Origin: Polaromonas sp. OV174 | Lineage (GTDB): Bacteria; Pseudomonadota; Gammaproteobacteria; Burkholderiales; Burkholderiaceae_C | Length of the DNA stretch: 64,000 nt | Reading direction: 5' to 3' | Assembly: GCF_900112285.1 (NCBI RefSeq) | Contig: NZ_FOKZ01000018.1 | Coordinates: 1 to 64,000, forward strand | Shown here: positions 4,050 through 55,685 of the stretch, piece after piece | How positions within the stretch are numbered: position 1 is the stretch's first letter | How the letters are laid out: each line of letters begins with the position of its first letter | Notes under the pieces: model-generated | What the model was told of the DNA's origin: nothing | Database searches by the model: none | The model's input: only the letters and a program-made list of their open reading frames with translations | Made by a program: the position numbers and the translations under genes

Positions 4050-4066
4050 GTGCGCGGCGGCGAAGG

Positions 4067-4146
4067 TGCGCCGCGCCGGGCCGCCCCAAGCAAGCACAGC
4101 CCCCTCGGGGGGCAGCGCAGTACGCGAAGCGACCAGCGTGGGGGCC
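4067..4146 (+). repeat. R1 interspersed repeat, copy 2
   Basis: Near-consensus R1 element with the core CCGCCCCAAGCAAGCACAG, the CCCCCTCGGGGGG palindrome, AGTACGCGAAGCGAC and terminal GTGGGGGC. It fills the gap between yajQ and the retropepsin-like gene. On the minus strand it is translatable without a stop into the possible longer N-terminus of the protease. Confidence 0.9.
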
Positions 4147-4151
4147 ATGTT

Positions 4152-4637
4152 TTAGTCTCTGAAGTTGTCGAAACTCAAGGGCAGATCCTTGATGTCGCTA
4201 CGTATCAAGGCCATGGCCGCTTGCAGGTCGTCACGCTTGGCGCCTGTCACGCGAACCTTGCCGTCCTGGATGGAGGCTTGCACCTTCATCTTGCTGCCCT
4301 TGATGAGCTGCTGGATTTTCTTGGCTTGTTCGGTGTCAATGCCGTCGCGCACCTTTGTGACCTGCTTGACCCGGTCGCCGCCAATTTTTTCGACCTTGCC
4401 AATATCGAGAAAGCGCACATCCACGCCGGCCTTGGCGAGCTTGTTGCGCAGGATTTCGTGGATCTGGTCGATCTGGAAATCACCATCGCCAATCAAGGTG
4501 ATCTCCTTGTCTTTCAGTTCAATGGCGGCAGACGTTCCCTTGAAGTCAAAACGGGTGCCGATTTCCTTGCCGGTGTTTTCAACGGCGTTTTTCATCTTGA
4601 CCATATCGGTTTCAAGAACGGTATCAAATGTAGGCAT
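4152..4637 (-). CDS. yajQ: YajQ-family nucleotide-binding protein (DUF520)
   Basis: 161-residue cytoplasmic protein, full length for the YajQ family. It starts MPTFDTVLE; the RFDFKGTSA segment and the C-terminal LSFDNFRD are typical. Family members bind nucleotides, and a Xanthomonas member was reported as a cyclic di-GMP effector; the role here is inferred only. It is divergent from murB, with 54 bases between the start codons holding both promoters. The retropepsin-like gene follows on the same strand beyond an R1 repeat. Confidence 0.95.
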
Positions 4638-4691: not shown

Positions 4692-5759
4692 ATGTTAGTC
4701 GAGAAAAACGTTCCCCTCCAGTCATCCAACACCTTTGGCATCATGGCCAAGGCGCTCACCCTGGTCCGGGTTGGCAGCGAAGCCGATATTGCCGCCGTGC
4801 TGCAGGATGCCAGCCTGGCCGCCCAGCCCAAGTTTGTCCTGGGCGGCGGCAGCAACATCGTGCTGACCGGCGATGTCAAGGCCCTGGTGCTCAAGGTCGA
4901 GATCATGGGCAAGCGCCTGCTCCGCGAGACCGACAAGGCCTGGATCATAGAAGCCGGCGCCGGGGAAAACTGGCACGAACTGGTCAGCTGGACGCTGCAA
5001 ATGGGCTACCCCGGCCTGGAAAACCTGGCGCTGATTCCGGGCACCGTCGGTGCCTCGCCGGTGCAAAACATAGGCGCTTACGGCGTGGAGCTGCAAGACC
5101 GCTTTGAGTCGCTTGACGCCGTGGATTTGACGACCGGCCAGCCCTTCACGCTCAATGCCGCGCAATGCGCTTTTGGCTACCGCGATTCCGTCTTCAAGCA
5201 CGCCAGCCAAGCCGGTGAAGCGGCTGGCGCGCAGGCCCTGGGTCTGGCGCACAGAACGCTGATTACCCGGGTGCGCTTTTCCCTGCCCAAGCAGTGGAAG
5301 CCCGTGCTGGGCTATGCGGATATAGAGAAAAAGATGCTGCAGTCCAATGTGGACAAGCCTAGTGCGCTACAGATTTATGAGTGGATTTGCGAGGTTCGCA
5401 AGGTCAAGCTGCCCGATCCGCAAGTCGTAGGCAATGCCGGCAGCTTCTTCAAGAACCCCACCGTCTCGCCCGAGCAGTGCGCCGACATCATTCAGCGCGA
5501 GCCCAAGATCGTGCACTATCACCTGGCTGACGGCTCGGTCAAGCTGGCCGCCGGCTGGCTGATTGACGCCTGCGGCTGGAAGGGCAAGTCCATAGGCAAC
5601 GCCGGCGTTTATGAAAAACAGGCGCTGGTGCTGGTGAATCGCGGCGGCACCAGCAACCCGGTGACGGGCGGCGAGGTGATGACCCTGGCCAAGGCGATAC
5701 AGACCAGTGTCTACGAGCGCTTTGGCATCCGGCTGGAACCCGAGCCGGTGGTGGTGTGA
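4692..5759 (+). CDS. murB: UDP-N-acetylenolpyruvoylglucosamine reductase MurB
   Basis: 355-residue cytoplasmic flavoenzyme that reduces UDP-GlcNAc-enolpyruvate to UDP-MurNAc in peptidoglycan synthesis. The FAD-binding GGGSNIVLT motif near residue 55 and the NIGAYGVE region near 120 are visible. The catalytic-Ser motif is [10 protein letters not shown] near 250, and the C-terminus EPEPVVV carries the conserved Glu. This is a type I (E. coli-like) MurB with normal length. The ATG starts 54 bases from the divergent yajQ start. A terminator follows directly, so transcription is probably monocistronic. Confidence 0.96.
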
Positions 5760-5796: not shown

Positions 5797-5823
5797 AAGC
5801 CACCCTGGGGTGGCTTCTTTTTT
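5797..5823. terminator. Terminator between convergent murB and argG
   Basis: An 8-bp stem (5797-5804 with 5809-5816) with a 4-base loop is followed by CTTTTTT. A-rich sequence upstream of the stem gives a T tract on the other strand as well, so it can serve both convergent genes. Confidence 0.85.
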
Positions 5824-5870
5824 GATAGCTGCCAGCGCTTACTGCATAAGGGCTAGCGGCTGATTTGGCT
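5821..5870 (+). repeat. R2 interspersed repeat between murB and argG
   Basis: R2 copy with TTGATAGCTG, an AGCGCTT segment, the GGGCTAGCGGC block and a TGATTTGG tail, matching the copies near 10.6, 54.7 and 55.6 kb. It sits between the terminator and the argG stop codon. Confidence 0.75.
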
Positions 5871-5875
5871 TGAAA

Positions 5876-7560
<1,685 letters not shown>

Positions 7561-7701: not shown

Positions 7702-8286
7702 ATGACATCCCATCAATCAGACAACCCGGACGGAGCATTGATCATGCTGATTGACCGTGTGGCCCTGGCCGACGAGGCCGCGCTCCGGGAGCTCTACGAG
7801 CTGACGTCGTCCAAGCTCTACGGTTTGGCGGTGCGCGTGGTGGGCAATCGTGAATGGGCGCAAGACGTGTTGCAGGAGGCCTATCTGAACATCTGGCGAA
7901 TTGCTGGCGACTACCGCGCCACGCTGTCGCCGCCCATGGCCTGGATGGGGCTGGTGGTACGCAGCCGCGGCCTTGATTTTTTACGCCGCCGCGCTACCGA
8001 GCGTGCGGACCGGATGCAGGAACTCGATGCGCTGATTTCGGACACCGTGGCGGGGGATTCACCCAATCCCATGGACACGACGCAGGCCAGCGAGCAGGCC
8101 TGGGCCTTGCACCAGTGTCTGAGCCAGTTGGAGAACAAGCAGCGCGAAGTGGTGAGCCTGGCCTATCTGCGCGATCTGAGCCATGGTGAGCTGGCTGCGC
8201 AGCTCAAGCTGCCGCTGGGCACCGTGAAAACCTGGATTCGCCGGGGATTGGAACAATTGCGCGGCTGCATGGCGAGGTTTGTATGA
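7702..8286 (+). CDS. ECF RNA polymerase sigma factor (RpoE/SigK-like)
   Basis: 194 residues with sigma region 2 (residues about 20-95, including the EWAQDVLQEAYLNIWR helix) and region 4 near the C-terminus (REVVSLAYLRDLSHGELAAQ, then GTVKTWIRRGLEQLR). It should redirect RNA polymerase to a stress regulon. The partner anti-sigma gene lies 202 bases downstream, beyond two tandem R1 repeats. ATG 7702 is used; ATG 7744 has a better ribosome-binding site (GGAG) and would remove 14 poorly conserved residues. The inducing signal is not evident. Confidence 0.92.
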   Translation: MTSHQSDNPDGALIMLIDRVALADEAALRELYELTSSKLYGLAVRVVGNREWAQDVLQEAYLNIWRIAGDYRATLSPPMAWMGLVVRSRGLDFLRRRATERADRMQELDALISDTVAGDSPNPMDTTQASEQAWALHQCLSQLENKQREVVSLAYLRDLSHGELAAQLKLPLGTVKTWIRRGLEQLRGCMARFV

Positions 8287-8294
8287 CAAATAGA

Positions 8295-8376
8295 GCCCCC
8301 ATGCTCGTCGCTACGCGTACTTCGCTGCCCCCCGAGGGGACTGTGCTTGCTTGGGGCGGCCCGGCGCGGCGCACTC
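8295..8376 (-). repeat. R1 interspersed repeat, copy 3 (tandem, first)
   Basis: Reverse-orientation R1 with GCCCCCATGCTCGTCGC, the central CCCCCCGAGGGG palindrome and TGTGCTTGCTTGGGGCGGCCCGG. It begins eight bases after the sigma-factor stop codon and is followed at once by a second copy. Confidence 0.9.
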
Positions 8377-8378
8377 TG

Positions 8379-8460
8379 GCCCCCATGCTCGTCGCTTCGC
8401 GTACCGCGCTGCCCCCGAGGGGGCGCATTTCGCCTTGGGGCGGCCCGGCGGCGAAACCGC
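8379..8460 (-). repeat. R1 interspersed repeat, copy 4 (tandem, second)
   Basis: Second reverse-orientation R1 unit, directly after the first. The 5' half is nearly identical to it (GCCCCCATGCTCGTCGC). The 3' half has diverged (GGCGCATTTCGCCTTGGGGCGG). Together the pair fills the gap between the sigma and anti-sigma genes. Confidence 0.88.
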
Positions 8461-10614: not shown

Positions 10615-10636
10615 CCGGCGATTTTCGCATGTTTTA

Positions 10637-10694
10637 GATGAAATAGGCCTCTAGCCCAATTGCATAGGGCGCAAGCAGCTATCAATTAAATAGC
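10637..10694 (-). repeat. R2 interspersed repeat
   Basis: Read on the minus strand: GCTATTTAATTGATAGCTG, then CTTGCGCCC, a short spacer, GGGCTAGAGGCC and an AT-rich tail. This is close to the R2 consensus. It lies upstream of the YffB-like gene in the intergenic region before pip. Confidence 0.85.
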
Positions 10695-10712
10695 GTTTGA
10701 GGCCTTGGCTGA

Positions 10713-15249: not shown

Positions 15250-16560
15250 ATGAAAAACTTGCAAACCCTGGACGACTGGCTGGCCTACTGTGAGGGCCTG
15301 CACCCGAAAAGCATAGACATGGGGCTGGAGCGCGTCAAAGCCGTGGCCCAGCGCATGGGCTTGGCCTTTGCCTGCCCCGTCATCACGGTGGCCGGCACCA
15401 ACGGCAAGGGCTCGACCTGCGCCATGCTGGAAGCCATCTTGCTGCAGTCCGGCTATCGCACCGGCGTCTTCACTTCGCCGCACCTGGTGCACTTTGAAGA
15501 GCGCTGCCGGGTCCGTGGCGATATCGTTGGCGCTACTGATTTGATAGCTTCTTTCGCCCGTGTTGAAAGGGCTAGAGTCGAAAATGATGCTGAAATAACG
15601 CTCACCTACTTTGAATTCACCACCCTGGCCATCCTGCAGCTGCTGGCCGATGCCAATCTGGATGTCGTGATTCTGGAGGTCGGCCTGGGCGGGCGCCTGG
15701 ACGCCGTCAACATCATCGACACCGACTGCGCCGTGATCACCAGCATTGATCTGGATCACATGGAATTTTTGGGCAACGACCGCGAAAGCATAGGCCGAGA
15801 AAAAGCCGGCATCATGCGCGCCGGCAAGCCGGTGATCGTCAGCGACCCCGTGCCGCCGCAAAGCATCATTGACCATGCCGCCGAGTTGGGCGCCGATCTG
15901 TGGCGTTTCGGCCAGGACTTCAATTTCTCCGGCGACAAACAGCAATGGGGCTGGGCCGGCCGCGGCCGGCGTTATGCCGGGCTGGCCTATCCGGCGCTGC
16001 GCGGCGCCAACCAACTGGTCAACGCCTCGGGCGTGCTGGCGGCGCTGACCGCTCTGCGCGATCGCCTGCCGGTCACGGCCCAGTCCGTGCGCAACGGCCT
16101 GTCCATGGTGGAGTTGCCGGGGCGCTTCCAGATCGTGCCCGGCCAGCCGACGCTGGTGCTGGACGTGGCGCACAACCCGCATTCTGTGGCGGCGCTGACC
16201 GAAAACCTCGATGCCATGGGCTTTTACCCCTGCACCCATGCCGTCTTCGGTGCCATGGCCGACAAGGATGTGGCGCCCATGCTGGCGCGGATCGGGCCGC
16301 TCATTGATAAATGGTATTTCACCGACCTGCCGACGCCGCGGGCGGCCAGTGGCGAAGACTTGCGCGCCAAATGGCAGGCCCAGCAAATCCGGCCGGAAGT
16401 GATTGCCAACGCTTACAAAAGCCCCGAAGAGGCCTTGCAAGCGGCCGTCAAGGCGGCAGACCCCGCTGATAGAATTGTCGTATTCGGATCGTTTTACACG
16501 GTGGGCGGTATCTTGAAGGACGGCGTGCCGCGTCTTTCGGCACCGCACCTGGCCGCCTGA
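15250..16560 (+). CDS. folC: Bifunctional folylpolyglutamate/dihydrofolate synthase
   Basis: 436-residue cytoplasmic ligase that adds Glu to dihydropteroate and folates using ATP. The P-loop GTNGKGST is near residue 55, followed by the TSPHLVHFEERCR motif, LTYFEFTTLA, the HNPHSVAAL region and a late FGSFYTVG segment. An R2 repeat lies in frame at about residues 95-117 (ATDLIASF to VEND), just before LTYFEF, slightly lengthening a loop compared with E. coli FolC. It is first gene of the cluster folC-SPOR-cvpA-purF-metZ-gltX. In related genomes accD usually precedes it; here the upstream gene is unrelated. Confidence 0.95.
   Translation: MKNLQTLDDWLAYCEGLHPKSIDMGLERVKAVAQRMGLAFACPVITVAGTNGKGSTCAMLEAILLQSGYRTGVFTSPHLVHFEERCRVRGDIVGATDLIASFARVERARVENDAEITLTYFEFTTLAILQLLADANLDVVILEVGLGGRLDAVNIIDTDCAVITSIDLDHMEFLGNDRESIGREKAGIMRAGKPVIVSDPVPPQSIIDHAAELGADLWRFGQDFNFSGDKQQWGWAGRGRRYAGLAYPALRGANQLVNASGVLAALTALRDRLPVTAQSVRNGLSMVELPGRFQIVPGQPTLVLDVAHNPHSVAALTENLDAMGFYPCTHAVFGAMADKDVAPMLARIGPLIDKWYFTDLPTPRAASGEDLRAKWQAQQIRPEVIANAYKSPEEALQAAVKAADPADRIVVFGSFYTVGGILKDGVPRLSAPHLAA
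15532..15599 (+). repeat. R2 repeat inside folC, in frame
   Basis: GATTTGATAGCTTCTTTCGC, then CCCGTGTTGAAAGGGC, TAGAGTCGAAAATGATG. This matches the R2 copies at 54.7 and 55.6 kb base by base in the core. It is translated without a stop as part of FolC, in the same frame and orientation as the partial copy in alkA. Confidence 0.8.
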
Positions 16561-16636: not shown

Positions 16637-17458
16637 ATGCCGTTTTTCAACCTCCGCCGGGGCGGCGCCAAGTCCGCCCCCGTTGCCGGGCCAGCCACTC
16701 CACCGGAAAGCGTGGACGTCATACGAAAACGCGCCAAGCACCGACTGATAGGCACCGTGGTGCTGGTGCTGATAGGTGTGCTGGGCTTTCCCCTGCTGTT
16801 CGATACCCAGCCGCGGCCGATTGCGGTGGATATCCCGATTGAAATTCCCGCCAAAAATGCCGTCAAGCCGCTGGTCATGCCGGCCCCGGTGGCCGTGACC
16901 GCGCCGGCCAGCCCGGCAGTGGCCGCGCCGACGGAAAAAGTGGCGGCCGCTGCCAGTTTGGCGCCCAAGGAAGAAATTGTAGTGTCAAAACCAGCTCTGC
17001 CCCAGGTGGTACCTGCGCAGATTGCTATCAAAACAGAAGCGAAGCCTGAGCCAAAAGTCGAAGCCAAACTGGAAGCCAAAGTAGAAACCAAGTCGCCCGT
17101 CAAGGTCGAGGCTAAACCGGCTCCCAAGCCGGCGGTGCCGGCCGGTGACGATGGCGCGCGTGCCAATGCCCTGCTCAATGGCGGCACGGCCGTGGCGGCC
17201 GCGCCCAAGGCAGCGGCCACCGATGTCGAGGGCCGCATGGTGGTGCAGGTGGGGGCTTTCGCCGATCCGGCCAAGGCGCACGAAGCGCGCGTGAAGCTGG
17301 AAAAAGCCGGCCTCAAGACCTACACCCAGGTGGCCGAAACCAAGGATGGCAAGCGCATTCGGGTTCGCGTCGGGCCGTTTGCCAGCAAGGCCGATGCGGA
17401 AAAGGCGGCCAAGAAAATCAAGGCGCTGGATTTGTCGGCCGCCATCCTCAGCCTTTAA
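16637..17458 (+). CDS. SPOR-domain membrane protein, DedD/FtsN-like
   Basis: 273-residue bitopic protein. It has a short cytoplasmic N-terminus, one membrane helix at about 36-53 (LIGTVVLVLIGVLGFPLLF), a long Ala/Pro/Lys/Glu-rich periplasmic linker (55-190) and a C-terminal SPOR domain (197-273, MVVQVGAFADPAKAHEA onward). SPOR domains bind glycan strands lacking stem peptides at the division site, so a septal role is likely. The linker contains a probable R2-derived stretch. It lies 76 bases after folC, in the standard Burkholderiales order before cvpA. Confidence 0.93.
   Translation: MPFFNLRRGGAKSAPVAGPATPPESVDVIRKRAKHRLIGTVVLVLIGVLGFPLLFDTQPRPIAVDIPIEIPAKNAVKPLVMPAPVAVTAPASPAVAAPTEKVAAAASLAPKEEIVVSKPALPQVVPAQIAIKTEAKPEPKVEAKLEAKVETKSPVKVEAKPAPKPAVPAGDDGARANALLNGGTAVAAAPKAAATDVEGRMVVQVGAFADPAKAHEARVKLEKAGLKTYTQVAETKDGKRIRVRVGPFASKADAEKAAKKIKALDLSAAILSL
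16991..17041 (-). repeat. Probable degenerate R2 repeat inside the SPOR gene
   Basis: GCGCAGATTGCTATCAAAAC-AGAAGC resembles the end of minus-orientation R2 copies (GCGCAAGAAGCTATCAA). A weaker match precedes it. It is read as AQIAIKTEA, in the same frame as the insertions in waaC (AQEAPENIA) and waaA (AQEAMNSGA). Its position in a low-complexity linker weakens the case. Confidence 0.45.
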
Positions 17459-22202: not shown

Positions 22203-22278
<76 letters not shown>

Positions 22279-22301
22279 AGTCGAACAGTTTTAGAAGAGT
22301 T

Positions 22302-22574
22302 TTTGGCAGGTCTTAAAAAGCCTGCTCCGGAAGTTCCAAGGTTTTGACCCTATCGTCTAGAGGCCTAGGACACTACCCTTTCACGGTAGGTACCGGGGTT
22401 CGAATCCCCGTAGGGTCGCCAAGATTTTGTGCAGCGATGCACGAAGACAAGGCACAAGAAGTTAGCACTTGGCTCGAAAGAGCAAACGCTATCTACCAGG
22501 AGTGGTAGTTCAGTTGGTTAGAATACCGGCCTGTCACGCCGGGGGTCGCGGGTTCGAGTCCCGTCCACTCCGCC
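22302..22574 (+). repeat. Duplicated tRNA-Glu/tRNA-Asp unit, copy 1
   Basis: About 273 bases covering a leader (GGCAGGTCTTAAAAAGCCTG), tRNA-Glu, spacer and tRNA-Asp. They recur 388 bases downstream with about three substitutions. The leader itself can form a small hairpin. Confidence 0.92.
22346..22421 (+). tRNA. tRNA-Glu (anticodon TTC), copy 1
   Basis: 76 bases. The acceptor stem GACCCTA pairs with TAGGGTC. The anticodon arm CTACC-CTTTCAC-GGTAG gives TTC. CCA is encoded. The sequence is identical to the second copy. Confidence 0.96.
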
Positions 22575-22575
22575 A
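22499..22575 (+). tRNA. tRNA-Asp (anticodon GTC), copy 1
   Basis: 77 bases. The acceptor stem GGAGTGG pairs fully with CCACTCC. The anticodon arm gives GTC (CCTGTCACG). CCA is encoded. It differs from copy 2 by one acceptor-stem base. Confidence 0.96.
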
Positions 22576-22581
22576 GTACAT

Positions 22582-22620
22582 AAGAGCTTGCTGCTATGAA
22601 AATGGAAGCAAGCTCTTTTT
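22582..22620 (+). terminator. Terminator after the first tRNA-Asp
   Basis: AAGAGCTTGCT (22582-22592) pairs with AGCAAGCTCTT (22607-22617), followed by T's. It lies just after copy 1 of the duplicated unit, so copy 2 may need its own promoter or read-through. Confidence 0.8.
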
Positions 22621-22689
22621 AATTCCTCCACTTTGAAGTGGGTTTGATCAGCAAGTTGCGCTGCCAATCCTTAACAAAGTTGAAGCGGT

Positions 22690-22962
22690 TTTGGCAGGTC
22701 TTAAAAAGCCTGCTCCGGAAGTTCCAAGGTTTTGACCCTATCGTCTAGAGGCCTAGGACACTACCCTTTCACGGTAGGTACCGGGGTTCGAATCCCCGTA
22801 GGGTCGCCAAGATTTTGTGCAGCAATGCACGAAGACAAGGCACAAGAAGTTAGCACTTGGCTCGAAAGAGCGAACGCTATCTACCAGGAGTGGTAGTTCA
22901 GTTGGTTAGAATACCGGCCTGTCACGCCGGGGGTCGCGGGTTCGAGTCCCGTCCGCTCCGCC
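22690..22962 (+). repeat. Duplicated tRNA-Glu/tRNA-Asp unit, copy 2
   Basis: Second copy of the unit at 22302-22574. Visible changes are one base in the spacer (GCAGCAATG for GCAGCGATG), one in GAGCGAAC and one in the tRNA-Asp acceptor stem. Confidence 0.92.
22734..22809 (+). tRNA. tRNA-Glu (anticodon TTC), copy 2
   Basis: Identical to the copy at 22346-22421; anticodon TTC, CCA encoded. Confidence 0.96.
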
Positions 22963-31029: not shown

Positions 31030-31071
31030 GATGATCACCTTTGATGCGGCTGTTGCCTGATAGCTGCTTTT

Positions 31072-31138
31072 TTAAGCTTTTTATGGCTGTAGCCCTTTGT
31101 GGATGGGCGCAAGAAGCTATGGATTTGGTAGCGTTTTA
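31072..31138 (-). repeat. R2 interspersed repeat between alkA and ogt
   Basis: The minus strand reads GCTACCAAATCCATAGCTTC, then TTGCGCCC, spacer, AGGGCTACAGCC. It is a clear R2 copy in the gap between ogt and alkA. No other feature was seen in this 249-base gap. Confidence 0.8.
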
Positions 31139-31278: not shown

Positions 31279-32793
31279 CTAGCCGTCGGCCGCCGCTCCC
31301 AGCGTGCCGCTCCAGGCGCGTATGACGGCGTAGCTGCGCCAGGGCGCCCAGGCGGCGCTGGCTTTTTCGGCCTCGCGCGCCGGGTTCTTCAAGCCCTGCA
31401 CGCCCAGTGCCTTGTGCAGCGCCACGTCACCGGACGGAAATGCATCGGGCCAGCGCAGCGCGCGCATCGCGATGTATTGCGCCGTCCAGTCGCCAATGCC
31501 CGGCAAGGCCTTGAGCGCGACCAGCGTGGCGTTGACGTCGGCGCCGCTGTGCAGTTGCAGGCGTTTGTCGGCCACCGCCTGCGCGATGCCGACGATGGCG
31601 GCCTGGCGCTGCCTGACGATGCCCAGCTGGCCCAGCGCATCGCCGCTGGCCGCCGCCAGCACGGCGGGTGCCGGAAAGAGTCGCGTCAGTTGCGGCCACG
31701 GTGTTTCCAGGGCTTCGCCAAAACGCTCCACCATGCGCTGCGCCAGGGTGCGGGCGGCGGCCACGGTGATTTGCTGGCCCAGCACGGCGCGCACCGCCAG
31801 TTCGTAGCCGTCCAGTGCGCCGGGAACGCGCAAGCCGTCGCCGCCCGGAAAACTCGCGTGCAGCACGCCGTTGATGGCCGCCGGGTCGGCGTCCAGATCG
31901 AACAGGGCGCGGACCCGGCGTATCACCAGCGGCAGCACCTCGCGCAGCGAATCGCTGACGCGCAGCACCAGCTGGCAGCGGCTCTCGTCAAAACTGGCCA
32001 GCAGCCAGCCGGTATGCACCTTGCCGCCGGATTCGATGCGAAATGTCCTTCCCAGGCCCGGTGCTTGTCCGCTACCAGCTATGAATTCAATAGCATTGAG
32101 GCAGCGCTTGCCGAAAAATTCCAGCATCGCCGCCACGTCGTAAGGCGGCCGGTAGCCCAGCCTTATGGTGATGCCCTCGCCAGCCGCTCCGGGCCGGGCT
32201 GGGCCCTGGCGCCGCATTTGCGTCGGGTTGAGCTGGTAGTGGTCCAGGAAGGCGGCGTTAAAGCGGCGCAGGCTGGCGTAGCCGCTGATCAGCGCCACCT
32301 GGGTGATGGGCAAGTTGGTGTCGGCCAGCAACTGCTTGGCCGTGTGCAGGCGCCGCGTCTGCAAATACTGCAATGGTGAAACACCAAACTGGGCTTCGAA
32401 AATCCGCCGCACATGGCGGTCGCTCACGCCTAGGCGGGCGGCCAGTTTTTCCACCGAGGGCGCGGCGTCCGTCCAGGCTTCGGTTTCATCCAGCAGCCTG
32501 GCGGCCTGGTGCGCCAGGATGTAGGAGGCGTCCTGGATGGACCAGACCACCGAGTGCGGCGCCAACTCGGGCCGGCAGCGCAGGCAGGGGCGAAAGCCGG
32601 CGCTTTCGGCCTGCGCCGCATGGCGAAAGAAGCGGCAGTTTTCCCGCTTGGGCGCCTTCACGCTGCAGACCGGCCGGCAGTAAATGCCGGTGGAGGTCAC
32701 GCCGGTGAAAAAGCTGCCGTCAAAACGCGCGTCCCGCGCCTTCAGGGCAAGGTAGCAGTCGTTGTCGGCCAGTGGGGCGTTTGCGGTGGTCAT
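31279..32793 (-). CDS. alkA: Ada-type regulator fused to DNA-3-methyladenine glycosylase (AlkA)
   Basis: 504 residues. An Ada zinc/methyl-phosphotriester domain (about 10-80) has the four Cys at 39, 43, 70 and 73. Two AraC helix-turn-helix motifs follow (about 90-195), then an AlkA N-terminal domain (about 210-295) and a HhH-GPD glycosylase domain (about 300-490; LPGIGDWTAQYIAMRAL with the following catalytic Asp). It thus combines sensing of DNA methylation, transcription control and base excision. ATG 32793 is the family start. A partial R2 repeat adds residues around 235-245. The methyltransferase half of Ada is encoded separately by ogt nearby. Confidence 0.94.
   Translation of the reverse strand: MTTANAPLADNDCYLALKARDARFDGSFFTGVTSTGIYCRPVCSVKAPKRENCRFFRHAAQAESAGFRPCLRCRPELAPHSVVWSIQDASYILAHQAARLLDETEAWTDAAPSVEKLAARLGVSDRHVRRIFEAQFGVSPLQYLQTRRLHTAKQLLADTNLPITQVALISGYASLRRFNAAFLDHYQLNPTQMRRQGPARPGAAGEGITIRLGYRPPYDVAAMLEFFGKRCLNAIEFIAGSGQAPGLGRTFRIESGGKVHTGWLLASFDESRCQLVLRVSDSLREVLPLVIRRVRALFDLDADPAAINGVLHASFPGGDGLRVPGALDGYELAVRAVLGQQITVAAARTLAQRMVERFGEALETPWPQLTRLFPAPAVLAAASGDALGQLGIVRQRQAAIVGIAQAVADKRLQLHSGADVNATLVALKALPGIGDWTAQYIAMRALRWPDAFPSGDVALHKALGVQGLKNPAREAEKASAAWAPWRSYAVIRAWSGTLGAAADG
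32068..32100 (+). repeat. Partial R2 repeat inside alkA, in frame
   Basis: On the coding strand: GCTATTGAATTCATAGCTGG, the left arm of R2, followed by a diverged right part. It is translated A-I-E-F-I-A, in the same frame as A-T-D-L-I-A in folC. Listed on the plus strand because that is how the window reads it; the repeat orientation follows the minus-strand gene. Confidence 0.6.
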
Positions 32794-32922
32794 GGCGAAA
32801 TGATACGCCTGGTGCTGCTGTGAACTAGCCGTTTTCGGACATGTCCCTGAGCGGCTTTGGGCGGAGGTACGCAAGGGCTGCCGCCTACAATCGATCCAGT
32901 CTCACTATTGGAAAAACTTGCC

Positions 32923-34308: not shown

Positions 34309-34324
34309 TCGCTGTGGACGATGA

Positions 34325-34405
34325 CGTGCGCAGCGCCGGGCCGCCCCAAGCAAGCACAGCCCCCTCGGGGGGCAGCGCATTACACGGAGTGAAAAGCGTG
34401 GGGGC
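34325..34405 (+). repeat. R1 interspersed repeat, copy 5
   Basis: Near-consensus R1 (CCGCCCCAAGCAAGCACAG core, CCCCCTCGGGGGG palindrome). The 3' end is changed to ACACGGAGTGAAAAGCGTGGGGGC. It contributes both the GGAG ribosome-binding site and the GTG start of waaC. Confidence 0.9.
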
Positions 34406-35417
34406 AAAAAAGATCCTGCTCGTCAAGCTGTCGTCGCTGGGCGACGTGGTTCATGCCTTGCCGGTGCTGCAAGACATACACGCCGCCTTGCCTGATGCGC
34501 AGATTGACTGGGTGGTGGAGAAATCCTTTGCCCCGCTGCTGGCCAATCACGCCGGTGTGCACCGCATCATTGCCTGCGAGATCCGGCGCTGGCGCAAGTC
34601 GCCGCTGTCGGCCGCCACCCGCCTGCAGTGGAACGCCTTCAAGGCCCAGCTGCGACAAGAGCGCTACGACGCGGTGATTGATCTGCAAGGCCTGACCAAG
34701 TCGGCGCTGGTGGCGCGGCTGGCGCGCATGGCGCCGGGCGGCAAACGTTACGCGCTGGCGAATCAGACCGAGGGCTCGGGTTACGAAGCGCCGACGCGCT
34801 GGGTCGCCGACGTGGCGATTCGCATGAGGCCGCACATCCACGCCGTGCAGCGCTCGCGCGAGCTGGCTGCGCAGGCGCTGGGCTACGCCTTGGTGGTGAC
34901 GCCTGATTTTGGATTAAAAAGGCCTGCAGCCCAGCAGGGACGAGCGCAAGAAGCTCCTGAAAACATAGCGAATCGGGTGGCCTTTGTGCACGGCACGTCG
35001 CGCGCCGACAAGGAGTGGCCGCTGGACCACTGGATCGCACTGGGTCAGCGCCTGAATGCGGCCGGCCAGCAAATCGTGCTGCCGCATGGCAATGCCCGCG
35101 AGCTGGCGACCAGCCAGGCGATTGCCCAGGCGCTCAATGCGCGCGAGCCCGAGCAGGCCGTGGTCTGGCCGCTGCTGGCGCTCGATGCCCTGACGCACGA
35201 GCTGGCACTGTGCGCCGGCGTCATAGGCGTGGACAGCGGCGTCAGCCACATCGCCGTGGCGCTGGATTTGCCGCATGTGCAGATTTACAACTTCGACACC
35301 GACTGGCGCACCGGGCCGGCAGCTGGCGGGCGCCAGCGCAGCGTGTTTGCGCAGCCCGCGCCCAGCGTGGAGGCGGTCTGGCAGGCCTGGCTGGATTGCC
35401 AGTCGGGGGCTGCATGA
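34398..35417 (+). CDS. waaC: LPS heptosyltransferase I
   Basis: 339-residue GT9 glycosyltransferase that adds the first L-glycero-D-manno-heptose to Kdo of the LPS inner core at the cytoplasmic face. The N-terminus KKILLVKLSSLGDVVHALPV and the donor-site FVHGTSRADKEWP and GVDSGVSHIAVAL motifs are typical of WaaC. GTG 34398 lies at the end of an R1 repeat, so the protein begins M-G-A-K. An R2 repeat adds about 20 residues near 172-192 between two domains. The frame is open further upstream through the repeat, but without a good start. It overlaps waaA by four bases. Confidence 0.94.
   Translation: MGAKKILLVKLSSLGDVVHALPVLQDIHAALPDAQIDWVVEKSFAPLLANHAGVHRIIACEIRRWRKSPLSAATRLQWNAFKAQLRQERYDAVIDLQGLTKSALVARLARMAPGGKRYALANQTEGSGYEAPTRWVADVAIRMRPHIHAVQRSRELAAQALGYALVVTPDFGLKRPAAQQGRAQEAPENIANRVAFVHGTSRADKEWPLDHWIALGQRLNAAGQQIVLPHGNARELATSQAIAQALNAREPEQAVVWPLLALDALTHELALCAGVIGVDSGVSHIAVALDLPHVQIYNFDTDWRTGPAAGGRQRSVFAQPAPSVEAVWQAWLDCQSGAA
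34911..34970 (-). repeat. R2 repeat inside waaC, in frame
   Basis: The minus strand reads CGCTATGTTTTCAGGAGCTT, then CTTGCGCTC, spacer, GGGCTGCAGGCC. It is translated as R-P-A-A-Q-Q-G-R-A-Q-E-A-P-E-N in WaaC, between the region after residue 170 and the conserved FVHGTSR motif. It is an extra segment compared with typical WaaC. Confidence 0.82.
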
Positions 35418-36739
35418 GTGTTATGGCACGTCACGCTTATTCGCTGCTCATGCGCCTGGGCCAGCCGCTGCTGCGCCGCAAGCTGGCGCGTCGCGGCCGG
35501 CAGGAGCCGGCTTATCTGGAGGCGGTGGACGAGCGCTTCGGCCACTACAGCCAGCCGGCGCAAAGCACTTCGGAGCTGGTCTGGCTGCACGCCGTGTCGC
35601 TGGGGGAAACGCGCACGGCGGCGATCTTGCTCAAGGCCTTGCGGGCAGAGAAGCCGGGGCTGCGCATACTGCTGACCCACGGTACCGCCACCGGCCGCGC
35701 CGAGGGCAGGGCGCTGCTGCAGCCCGGCGACATTCAGGTCTGGCAGCCCTGGGACAGCCCGGCGGCGGTGGCGCGTTTTTTCAATCACTTCAAGCCGCGG
35801 CTCGGCCTGCTGATGGAAACCGAAATCTGGCCGAATCTGCTGGCCCAGGCCAGGCAGCGCGCCATGCCGCTGCTGCTGGTGAACGGCCGGCTGTCAGCCA
35901 AATCCCTGAAGCAGGCCGAAAGCATGGCGCCACTGTCGCGCCCGGCCTATGCTGCCTTGACAGCGGTGTACGCGCAGACTGAGGCCGACGCCCAGCGCTT
36001 TCGCCAGTTGGGCGCAGCGGTGGCCGGCGTGTTTGGCAACCTCAAGTTTGATGCCAGCCCCCATGAGGCTCAACTGGAAACAGGCCGGCGCTGGCGCCAG
36101 GCGGCGGCCCAGCCGGTGCTGATGTTTGCCAGCTCGCGGGACGGTGAAGAAGATGAATTTCTTAAGGAAATAAGGGCTGCAGCGCAGGCGCAGCAAGCGC
36201 AAGAAGCTATGAATTCGGGAGCAAAAACTACTTTGGCTGGATTCAAGGCGCTGATCGTGCCGCGCCATCCGCAACGCTTTGACGAGGTGGCCGCACTGGT
36301 GGCGCAACATGGCTTGACGCTGTCGCGCCGATCCAGCTGGTCCGGCAGCCCGGCGCACAGCCAGGAGGCGATGCAGGCCGATGTCTGGCTGGGCGATTCG
36401 CTGGGCGAGATGGCGCTGTATTACGGCCTGAGCGATGTCGCCTTGCTGGGCGGCAGCTTTGCACCGCTGGGCGGCCAAAACCTGATCGAGGCGGCCGCCT
36501 GCGCTTGCCCGGTCGTCATGGGGCCGCACACCTTCAACTTCACCGAAGCCGCAGAGCTGGCCGAGGCCGAGGGCGCGGCGCTGCGCGTGGCCGACATGGC
36601 CCAAGCCGTAACGGCCGGGCTGGCGCTGCTCCATGATGCGCCCGCGCTGGCGCAAGCGCAGGCGGCCGGGCTGGCGTTTGCGGCGCGCAACCGGGGCGCG
36701 ACGGCCAAGACGATGGATGGCTTGCGGGGCTATTTGTAA
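35414..36739 (+). CDS. waaA: 3-deoxy-D-manno-octulosonic acid transferase
   Basis: 441-residue membrane-associated GT30 enzyme that transfers Kdo from CMP-Kdo to lipid A precursor. The DERFG acceptor-site Glu region (near 41-45), WLHAVSLGETRTA, GLLMETEIWPNLL, the IVPRHPQRFDEV block and the GGSFAPLGGQNLIEAAA donor loop are visible in order. An R2 repeat inserts about 25 residues (around 253-275) between ASSRDGEE and the IVPRHP block, making the protein longer than usual. The ATG overlaps the waaC stop (ATGA). It ends 78 bases before a convergent gene. Confidence 0.94.
   Translation: MSVMARHAYSLLMRLGQPLLRRKLARRGRQEPAYLEAVDERFGHYSQPAQSTSELVWLHAVSLGETRTAAILLKALRAEKPGLRILLTHGTATGRAEGRALLQPGDIQVWQPWDSPAAVARFFNHFKPRLGLLMETEIWPNLLAQARQRAMPLLLVNGRLSAKSLKQAESMAPLSRPAYAALTAVYAQTEADAQRFRQLGAAVAGVFGNLKFDASPHEAQLETGRRWRQAAAQPVLMFASSRDGEEDEFLKEIRAAAQAQQAQEAMNSGAKTTLAGFKALIVPRHPQRFDEVAALVAQHGLTLSRRSSWSGSPAHSQEAMQADVWLGDSLGEMALYYGLSDVALLGGSFAPLGGQNLIEAAACACPVVMGPHTFNFTEAAELAEAEGAALRVADMAQAVTAGLALLHDAPALAQAQAAGLAFAARNRGATAKTMDGLRGYL
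36171..36222 (-). repeat. R2 repeat inside waaA, in frame
   Basis: The minus strand reads GCTCCCGAATTCATAGCTTC, then TTGCGCTTGCTGCGCC, TGCGCTGCAGCCC. It is translated as R-A-A-A-Q-A-Q-Q-A-Q-E-A-M-N-S. This is the same orientation and frame as the waaC copy 1.25 kb upstream. Confidence 0.82.
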
Positions 36740-54745: not shown

Positions 54746-54811
54746 TTGCTATGAAAGTAGTAGCTGTTTGCGCCCGCTGTATATGGGCTAGCGGCCGAAA
54801 TGATCAATAAA
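54746..54811 (+). repeat. R2 interspersed repeat
   Basis: GCTATGAAAGTAGTAGCTGT, then TTGCGCCCGCTGTATATGGGC, TAGCGGCCGAAATGATCAAT (segments given separately). It is one of two best-preserved intergenic copies, after the chemoreceptor gene. Confidence 0.85.
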
Positions 54812-55619: not shown

Positions 55620-55685
55620 TTGCTATCGAGATGATAGCTTCTTGCGCCCGCTGCATCTGCGCTAAAGGCCTAAATGATCAATAAA
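55620..55685 (+). repeat. R2 interspersed repeat overlapping the gcdH end
   Basis: GCTATCGAGATGATAGCTTC, TTGCGCCCGCTGCATCTGCGC and TAAAGGCCTAAATGATCAAT. It is the closest relative of the copy at 54746. Its final bases (ATCAATAAAA) contain the stop and last codons of gcdH on the minus strand. Confidence 0.85.

Follow-up and report, generated by a model that had tools for sequence, protein, structure and literature searches.

The discussion of protein-coding repeats in bacteria has so far centred on Rickettsia, an obligate intracellular genus, and on a small number of genomes rich in REPs. The Rickettsia palindromic elements (RPEs), which are about 150 bp long (PMC10969869), are dispersed and lie in frame in unrelated conserved genes, where they encode a similar peptide, the TruB gene of R. 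conorii being one of the carriers (PMC3733652). REPs are described in the same report as sequences of high copy number, found close behind the stop codons of convergent or tandem genes and, for some of them, in frame within genes (PMC3733652). The betaproteobacterial repeat BRE occurs in Polaromonas among others, with some copies in coding sequences, and in Bordetella it measures 75-91 bp with a mean GC content of 69% (PMC3110155). Finally, the enterobacterial ERIC and RU elements are MITE-like, small and non-autonomous, can be intragenic and range from 103 to 168 bp (PMC2759123).

The repeat studied here, R2, is present in a 64-kb window (positions 1 to 64,000 of contig NZ_FOKZ01000018.1 of Polaromonas sp. 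OV174) and is a REP/MITE-like and RPE-like repeat family of one betaproteobacterial family. Many ordinary enzyme genes contain it in frame, and there, as with the Rickettsia repeats, a short and tolerated protein segment is added or replaced. The resemblance to RPEs, already put forward in the original prediction, is supported by dispersal, by in-frame presence in at least 20 genes, by similar peptides in unrelated conserved proteins (12 peptides of frame +2 share a mean column identity of 55% when aligned), by relaxed constraint and by placement in loops or helix extensions. When compared by description, R2 nevertheless differs from RPEs in being mostly intergenic and weakly palindromic and in residing in GC-rich betaproteobacteria; the long palindrome of about 150 bp is absent from R2, which has about 66 bp and one predicted 5-bp stem. 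Like GTAG/CGTC REPs, R2 lies behind stop codons, between convergent and tandem rather than divergent genes, but those REPs are palindromes of 20-40 bp with a terminal GTAG or CGTC, and the R2 consensus ends with neither tag. With its 66 bp and a mean GC content of 43% (146 copies), it is set apart from BRE by description, not by BRE sequence, and, again by description, from the ERIC/RU elements, which are longer and belong to another order. Unlike a MITE, it has no terminal inverted repeat in its conservation profile and no target-site duplication, since direct repeats flanking the 146 copies do not exceed those of shuffles. R2 is thus not filed under RPE, REP or BRE, as it fails the size, palindrome and tag features of the first two and the size and GC content of the third. 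No description of R2 was found in searches of one open-access library, in which its core 14-mers give no paper, and the original prediction likewise knew of none. The window also contains, at 2150-2229, 4056-4152, 8288-8384, 8377-8423 and 34326-34405, repeats with a GC content of 71-75% and a length of about 80-97 bp, some of them inverted relative to others, which fit BRE in size and GC content and are likened to it by description only (PMC3110155).

At least 150 full-length R2 copies are present in this Polaromonas genome, the best 150 candidates of a covariance model all having E <=1e-7. The core pattern, with one mismatch allowed, occurs at 158 places in the genome versus 2 for the reversed pattern, and a weight matrix trained on 60 copies, on which the 21 intragenic copies score 46-88, finds no match scoring more than 5 when 1.58 Mb of loci are read in reverse; chance similarity as the source of the matches is ruled out by this control. 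The analysis was carried out on 146 of the 150 copies, after leaving out three with a model-to-sequence length other than 66 and one at a contig end. Conservation over these copies places the borders at about -1 to 67, which defines a directional, 66-position family. The description of R2 as a palindrome holds only weakly: beyond the 5-bp stem, which is conserved, no covarying pairs were found over 126 copies, and folding is somewhat stronger than that of mononucleotide shuffles (folding energies of -19.0 versus -14.1 and -19.5 versus -15.0). An RNA structure under selection was considered and rejected for want of covariation.

In 0.86 Mb, all 41 core 14-mers (41/41) sit inside full-length R2, indicating that R2 spread as a whole unit. 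A short, uptake-signal-like motif, spread by transformation instead of as a mobile unit, would agree with a core conserved both in genes and behind stop codons, but as the core is never found alone, this reading is extremely improbable, and a DNA uptake sequence, whose short core would stand on its own, was rejected on the same 41 cores. Within the host family (Comamonadaceae by record names), 59 of 299 genomes, belonging to 30 of 141 genera, contain the core pattern together with the stem, compared with 0 of 195 genomes outside that family among 200 genomes of the order, the reversed pattern being absent from the rows inspected in both the family and the order tables. Within the genus, the profile of the frame +2 peptide matches 44 of 61 genomes, a count that includes intergenic copies. 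Rfam, at gathering score, gives five matches in the window, every one a tRNA; at 22203-22960, five tRNA genes are contained in a direct repeat whose 282-bp units are 98% identical.

Eleven R2 copies are present in the window, six of them in genes. The two copies first noticed, in waaC and waaA, are real, but they were an incomplete account. Five copies are intergenic, on the plus strand at 10631-10696 (77.2 bits) and 31069-31134 (62 bits), and on the minus strand at 5811-5876 (score 59.8), 54746-54811 (score 65.3) and 55620-55685 (63.5 bits). Besides waaC and waaA, the genic copies are: at 15530-15595, on the minus strand, in frame -2 (score 49.5) and in register with the native peptide, in a plus-strand gene (15250-16560) which shows Mur ligase domains in Pfam and which we take to be folC; at 16977-17042, on the plus strand, a diverged copy in frame +2 (score 23.3) of a plus-strand gene for a SPOR-domain protein (16637-17458; Pfam SPOR), whose counterpart in three further species has R2 too; at 32031-32096, on the plus strand, a diverged and weak copy in frame -2 (score 19.0) of a minus-strand Ada/AlkA-type gene (31279-32874; Pfam AlkA_N and Ada_Zn_binding); and at 5319-5384, on the plus strand, a weak and doubtful R2-like stretch in frame +0 (score 13.1) of murB (4692-5759, plus strand; Pfam MurB_C).

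waaC, encoding heptosyltransferase I of glycosyltransferase family 9, spans 34398-35417 on the plus strand, a start that is likelier than the alternative one at 34314 because a GC-rich repeat sits at the start of the longest open reading frame. It is followed by waaA, encoding the Kdo transferase (35414-36739, plus strand; Pfam and open reading frame). Each carries a full-length R2 of about 66 bp on the plus strand, at 34906-34971 in waaC (about residues 170-191) and at 36159-36224 in waaA (about residues 249-271). A covariance model for which 23 copies, but neither of these two, served as training set gives them 51.8 and 51.7 bits, respectively, and the weight matrix gives 65.2 and 64.4. The reading frame is open through both, in element frame +2 in each case, and the peptides, DFGLKRPAAQQGRAQEAPENIAN and FLKEIRAAAQAQQAQEAMNSGAK, are as originally described. 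The WaaC query matched four unrelated proteins of other species through its R2 residues alone, in the same frame.

The length added is smaller than the 20-25 residues first proposed for each protein, at about 11-14 residues in WaaA and at most about 7 in WaaC. Alignment with orthologues indeed gives a longer WaaA compared with R2-free relatives, the segment measuring 42 residues with R2 versus 31 without, or 56 versus 42 in seven outgroup rows; the WaaA segment of JS666 has a nearly equal length of 41 residues without recognisable R2. The lengths of WaaC overlap those of rows without R2: its loop has 36 or 32 residues with R2 and 29, 33 or 37 in rows without. In four or five Rhodoferax-type rows, the WaaC loop reaches 52 residues, with no R2 reported there (including L153, which was also searched). 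When mapped on structure models, the R2 peptide is predicted to be a disordered loop in WaaC, where the single segment with pLDDT <50 (residues 177-189) falls inside the R2 part, and a helix extension plus loop in WaaA, where a modelled helix (245-267) passes through R2 and is followed by residues 268-273 with pLDDT <50; a second low-pLDDT segment of WaaA, 350-353, is unrelated to R2. Leaving out the first five codons of R2, dN/dS is 0.64 in the WaaC segment and 0.97 in the WaaA one, versus 0.18 and 0.19 in the rest of the genes (15 and 16 pairs, which are not independent). Both R2 peptides are nearly free of constraint.

In Rhodoferax-type records, R2 is also matched in waaA (L155 at 7824-7889, L156 and L157 at 7837-7902), at a position that is shifted onwards by a few residues relative to Polaromonas and that may reflect independent insertion or shared descent; the waaA of L154 is without R2.

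Genome-wide, 21 of the 146 copies lie in open reading frames with good scores on both sides, as judged by a codon-usage score trained on 40 open reading frames of the window. Twenty were kept; the one dropped, C34_76411, has a weak coding signal and was outside the Pfam scans. Pfam names 19 of the 20 products, the last one having no family: tRNA-synt_1c, HAD hydrolase, an AIR synthase-like protein (presumably ThiL-like), DUF3418, DnaX, HemD, TruB, a NuoE/NuoF-like fusion, MoeA, CobU, HscB, GMC oxidoreductase, an aminopeptidase, laccase-like PgeF, a urate oxidase N-terminal domain, EarP, a nucleotidyltransferase, WaaC and WaaA. The emphasis initially placed on envelope genes is thus not borne out, the hosts being mainly tRNA, cofactor, DNA and redox enzymes. 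An aminopeptidase-type gene of another genus (L450, about 1501) carries R2 at what seems to be the same site as in this genome.

The agreement of frame between waaC and waaA is unsurprising by itself, as the probability that two sites drawn at random have the same frame is 0.31. Nor are frame and orientation fixed, as had been supposed from these two genes: even within the window, the six genic copies are spread over three frames (three in +2, two in -2, one in +0) and both strands. Four other genomes, sampled over 0.8 Mb, yielded 91 copies representing 50 sites; of the 11 intragenic sites, four each are in frames -2 and +2, two in -0 and one in +0. Over 31 distinct genic sites, made up of 20 of this genome, 4 of the window (those in MurB and AlkA being weak) and 7 of other Polaromonas, the frames are +2 for 14, -2 for 8, +0 for 6, -0 for 2 and +1 for 1, and -1 is never used; a weak +1 match in G033 at 119557, probably in a spurious open reading frame, had been excluded before counting. 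Among 126 non-genic copies, the stop-free frames are -2 in 69, +2 in 42, -1 in 38, +1 in 17 and +0 in 2. With an expectation taken from such present-day intergenic copies, frame +2 is enriched: where 25% would be expected, it accounts for 12 of 20 sites in this genome (p=0.0009), and it also exceeds expectation among all sites, with 14 of 31 (p=0.02); binomial tests were preferred here because a G-test is dominated by frames with tiny expectations. A single fixed frame for genic R2 is therefore ruled out, and the genome-wide tabulation leaves +2 in excess while other frames are also in use. In eight copy-rich genomes of other genera, eight matches at 30 loci are genic by codon score, six in frame +2 and two in +1, in six genera.

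The excess of frame +2 could mean that the R2 peptide is useful and kept by selection. The peptides of this frame are poor in aromatic residues and cysteine. Tolerance accounts equally well for the excess, though, and the near-neutral dN/dS in WaaA, the high one in WaaC and the use of other frames make a selected peptide very unlikely.

How R2 came to lie in these proteins can be followed site by site. The clearest case is MoeA, where R2-free genomes (e.g., G358, G362, G367 and G369) match residues up to 312-313 and resume at 336-337 with no base between, a gain of exactly 23 codons, and where basal Polaromonas rows are without the segment. CobU gains 10 residues, TruB and MurU gain 4 compared with solved homologues, and EarP has +1 to +9 compared with basal Polaromonas while being 4 residues shorter there than its best solved homologue. 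HscB gains none: its Pfam domain, although it includes R2, is matched over 74 residues at all of its 74 positions. In FolC, a near-identical peptide (...F-A-R-V-E-x-A-R...) of constant length is kept over R2 scores falling from 69 to -65, the changes being largely synonymous, and the peptide motif is present in R2-free basal rows; three species with an R2-free FolC are four residues shorter, so that its gain is none or 4. Judging from these alignments, several sites, WaaC among them, look like loop replacement rather than clean insertion.

One possibility is that R2 overwrote native codons in register, a dispersed copy acting as donor in template switching or conversion, with the length and part of the residues kept. 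The constancy of FolC over its range of R2 scores, its motif in R2-free basal rows, the small changes in EarP and the intact domain of HscB are in agreement with such an event. The clean gain of 23 codons in MoeA, the +10 of CobU and the +11-14 of WaaA are not, and insertion followed by deletion and re-adaptation reaches the same end state; we therefore regard overwriting as unlikely. A further reading, likewise doubtful, is that R2 is able to enter housekeeping proteins in register, a full-length copy taking up native secondary structure in FolC, EarP, HscB and MurU with little or no change in length. If true, functional protein segments would be rebuilt from the material of a dispersed non-coding repeat, and fresh and fossil patches of this kind would be found in many enzymes throughout a genus.

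The explanation that we prefer, and consider quite probable, is that R2 is a directional, AT-richer repeat of about 66 bp that spread as a unit, mostly to the stretch behind stop codons, and that in an ancestor of most sampled Polaromonas it was also taken into genes. Of many insertions, the survivors would be those that kept the frame, encoded a soluble peptide compatible with a helix or a loop and were placed in a linker. Flanking native residues may often have been lost, hence a net gain frequently below 22 residues; insertion plus loss is what we infer from FolC, HscB, TruB, MurU and WaaC, which show no clean insertion. The copies would then decay while their codons stay. Movement could have relied on a transposase supplied in trans, by analogy with REPs. 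Against this explanation stand the lack of clean insertion in several genes, the length of the JS666 WaaA, the absence of target duplication, the presence of only one near-empty site among the comparisons that lack the copy and a RAYT locus without R2: unlike REPs with their RAYT, no R2 lies within the 3.3-kb locus of the one RAYT-type gene (PF01797, the only family searched, in this genome). This gene, G000:C25:64817-65137, may serve another repeat.

The acquisitions are old, as far as shared positions in different species can tell. The copy is kept at the same place in 120 of 128 copy-by-genome comparisons between species; among the other eight, a single site, which two of the genomes reveal, is nearly empty and contains some 11 bases of unrelated origin in place of R2. 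Presence and absence between species thus give no sign of recent mobility, so that the element, first called mobile, is not seen to move at present, although strain-level movement is possible. Six products (HemD, TruB, PgeF, the tRNA-Glu synthetase-like protein, HAD and MoeA) have R2 at the same site in other Polaromonas. Trees of four genes place R2 in large clades, in which scores fall to -80 in scattered members with the segment length kept, as in MoeA of L404 and WaaC of L046; we read these low-score, length-keeping segments as R2 fossils. Equal-length orthologues without R2, which the original prediction took as evidence against insertion, do exist, but the outgroups decide against that conclusion.

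Outside genes, 118 intergenic copies with both neighbours (not counting five further copies in predicted genes and three with incomplete context) are divided into 51 convergent, 61 tandem and 6 divergent contexts, and crowd just behind stop codons, with medians of 8 and 21 nt. This location and the conservation of positions across species could indicate that R2 is a functional DNA or RNA site under selection, for example at transcript 3' ends, its presence in genes being a by-product. Folding stronger than that of shuffles points the same way, as does a first comparison of intergenic sites, in which strongly conserved columns have an identity of 0.909 versus 0.729 in weak ones, a contrast that is biased because the sites were chosen by score in both genomes. 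When sites are chosen in a third genome, the contrast has p-values of 0.38 and 0.004 in two sets of 7 sites each; moreover, no pairs covary and genic copies decay freely. A functional site is rather unlikely, if slightly less so than in-register overwriting.

The hosts of R2 are free-living, GC-rich bacteria with many species available. For each gene, sites in the fresh, the decayed and the empty state can be set side by side, so that a long-standing question, the passage from repeat to protein, becomes testable: how selfish or functional repeats enter proteins, what frames and positions proteins tolerate, and for how long the extra residues persist.

The intergenic copy at 31069-31134 precedes waaC by about 3 kb, and several Polaromonas and Rhodoferax-type records have an R2 at a comparable distance (at 2855 in L121, 2847 in L129, 2846 in L155, 2854 in L156 and 2847 in L157).
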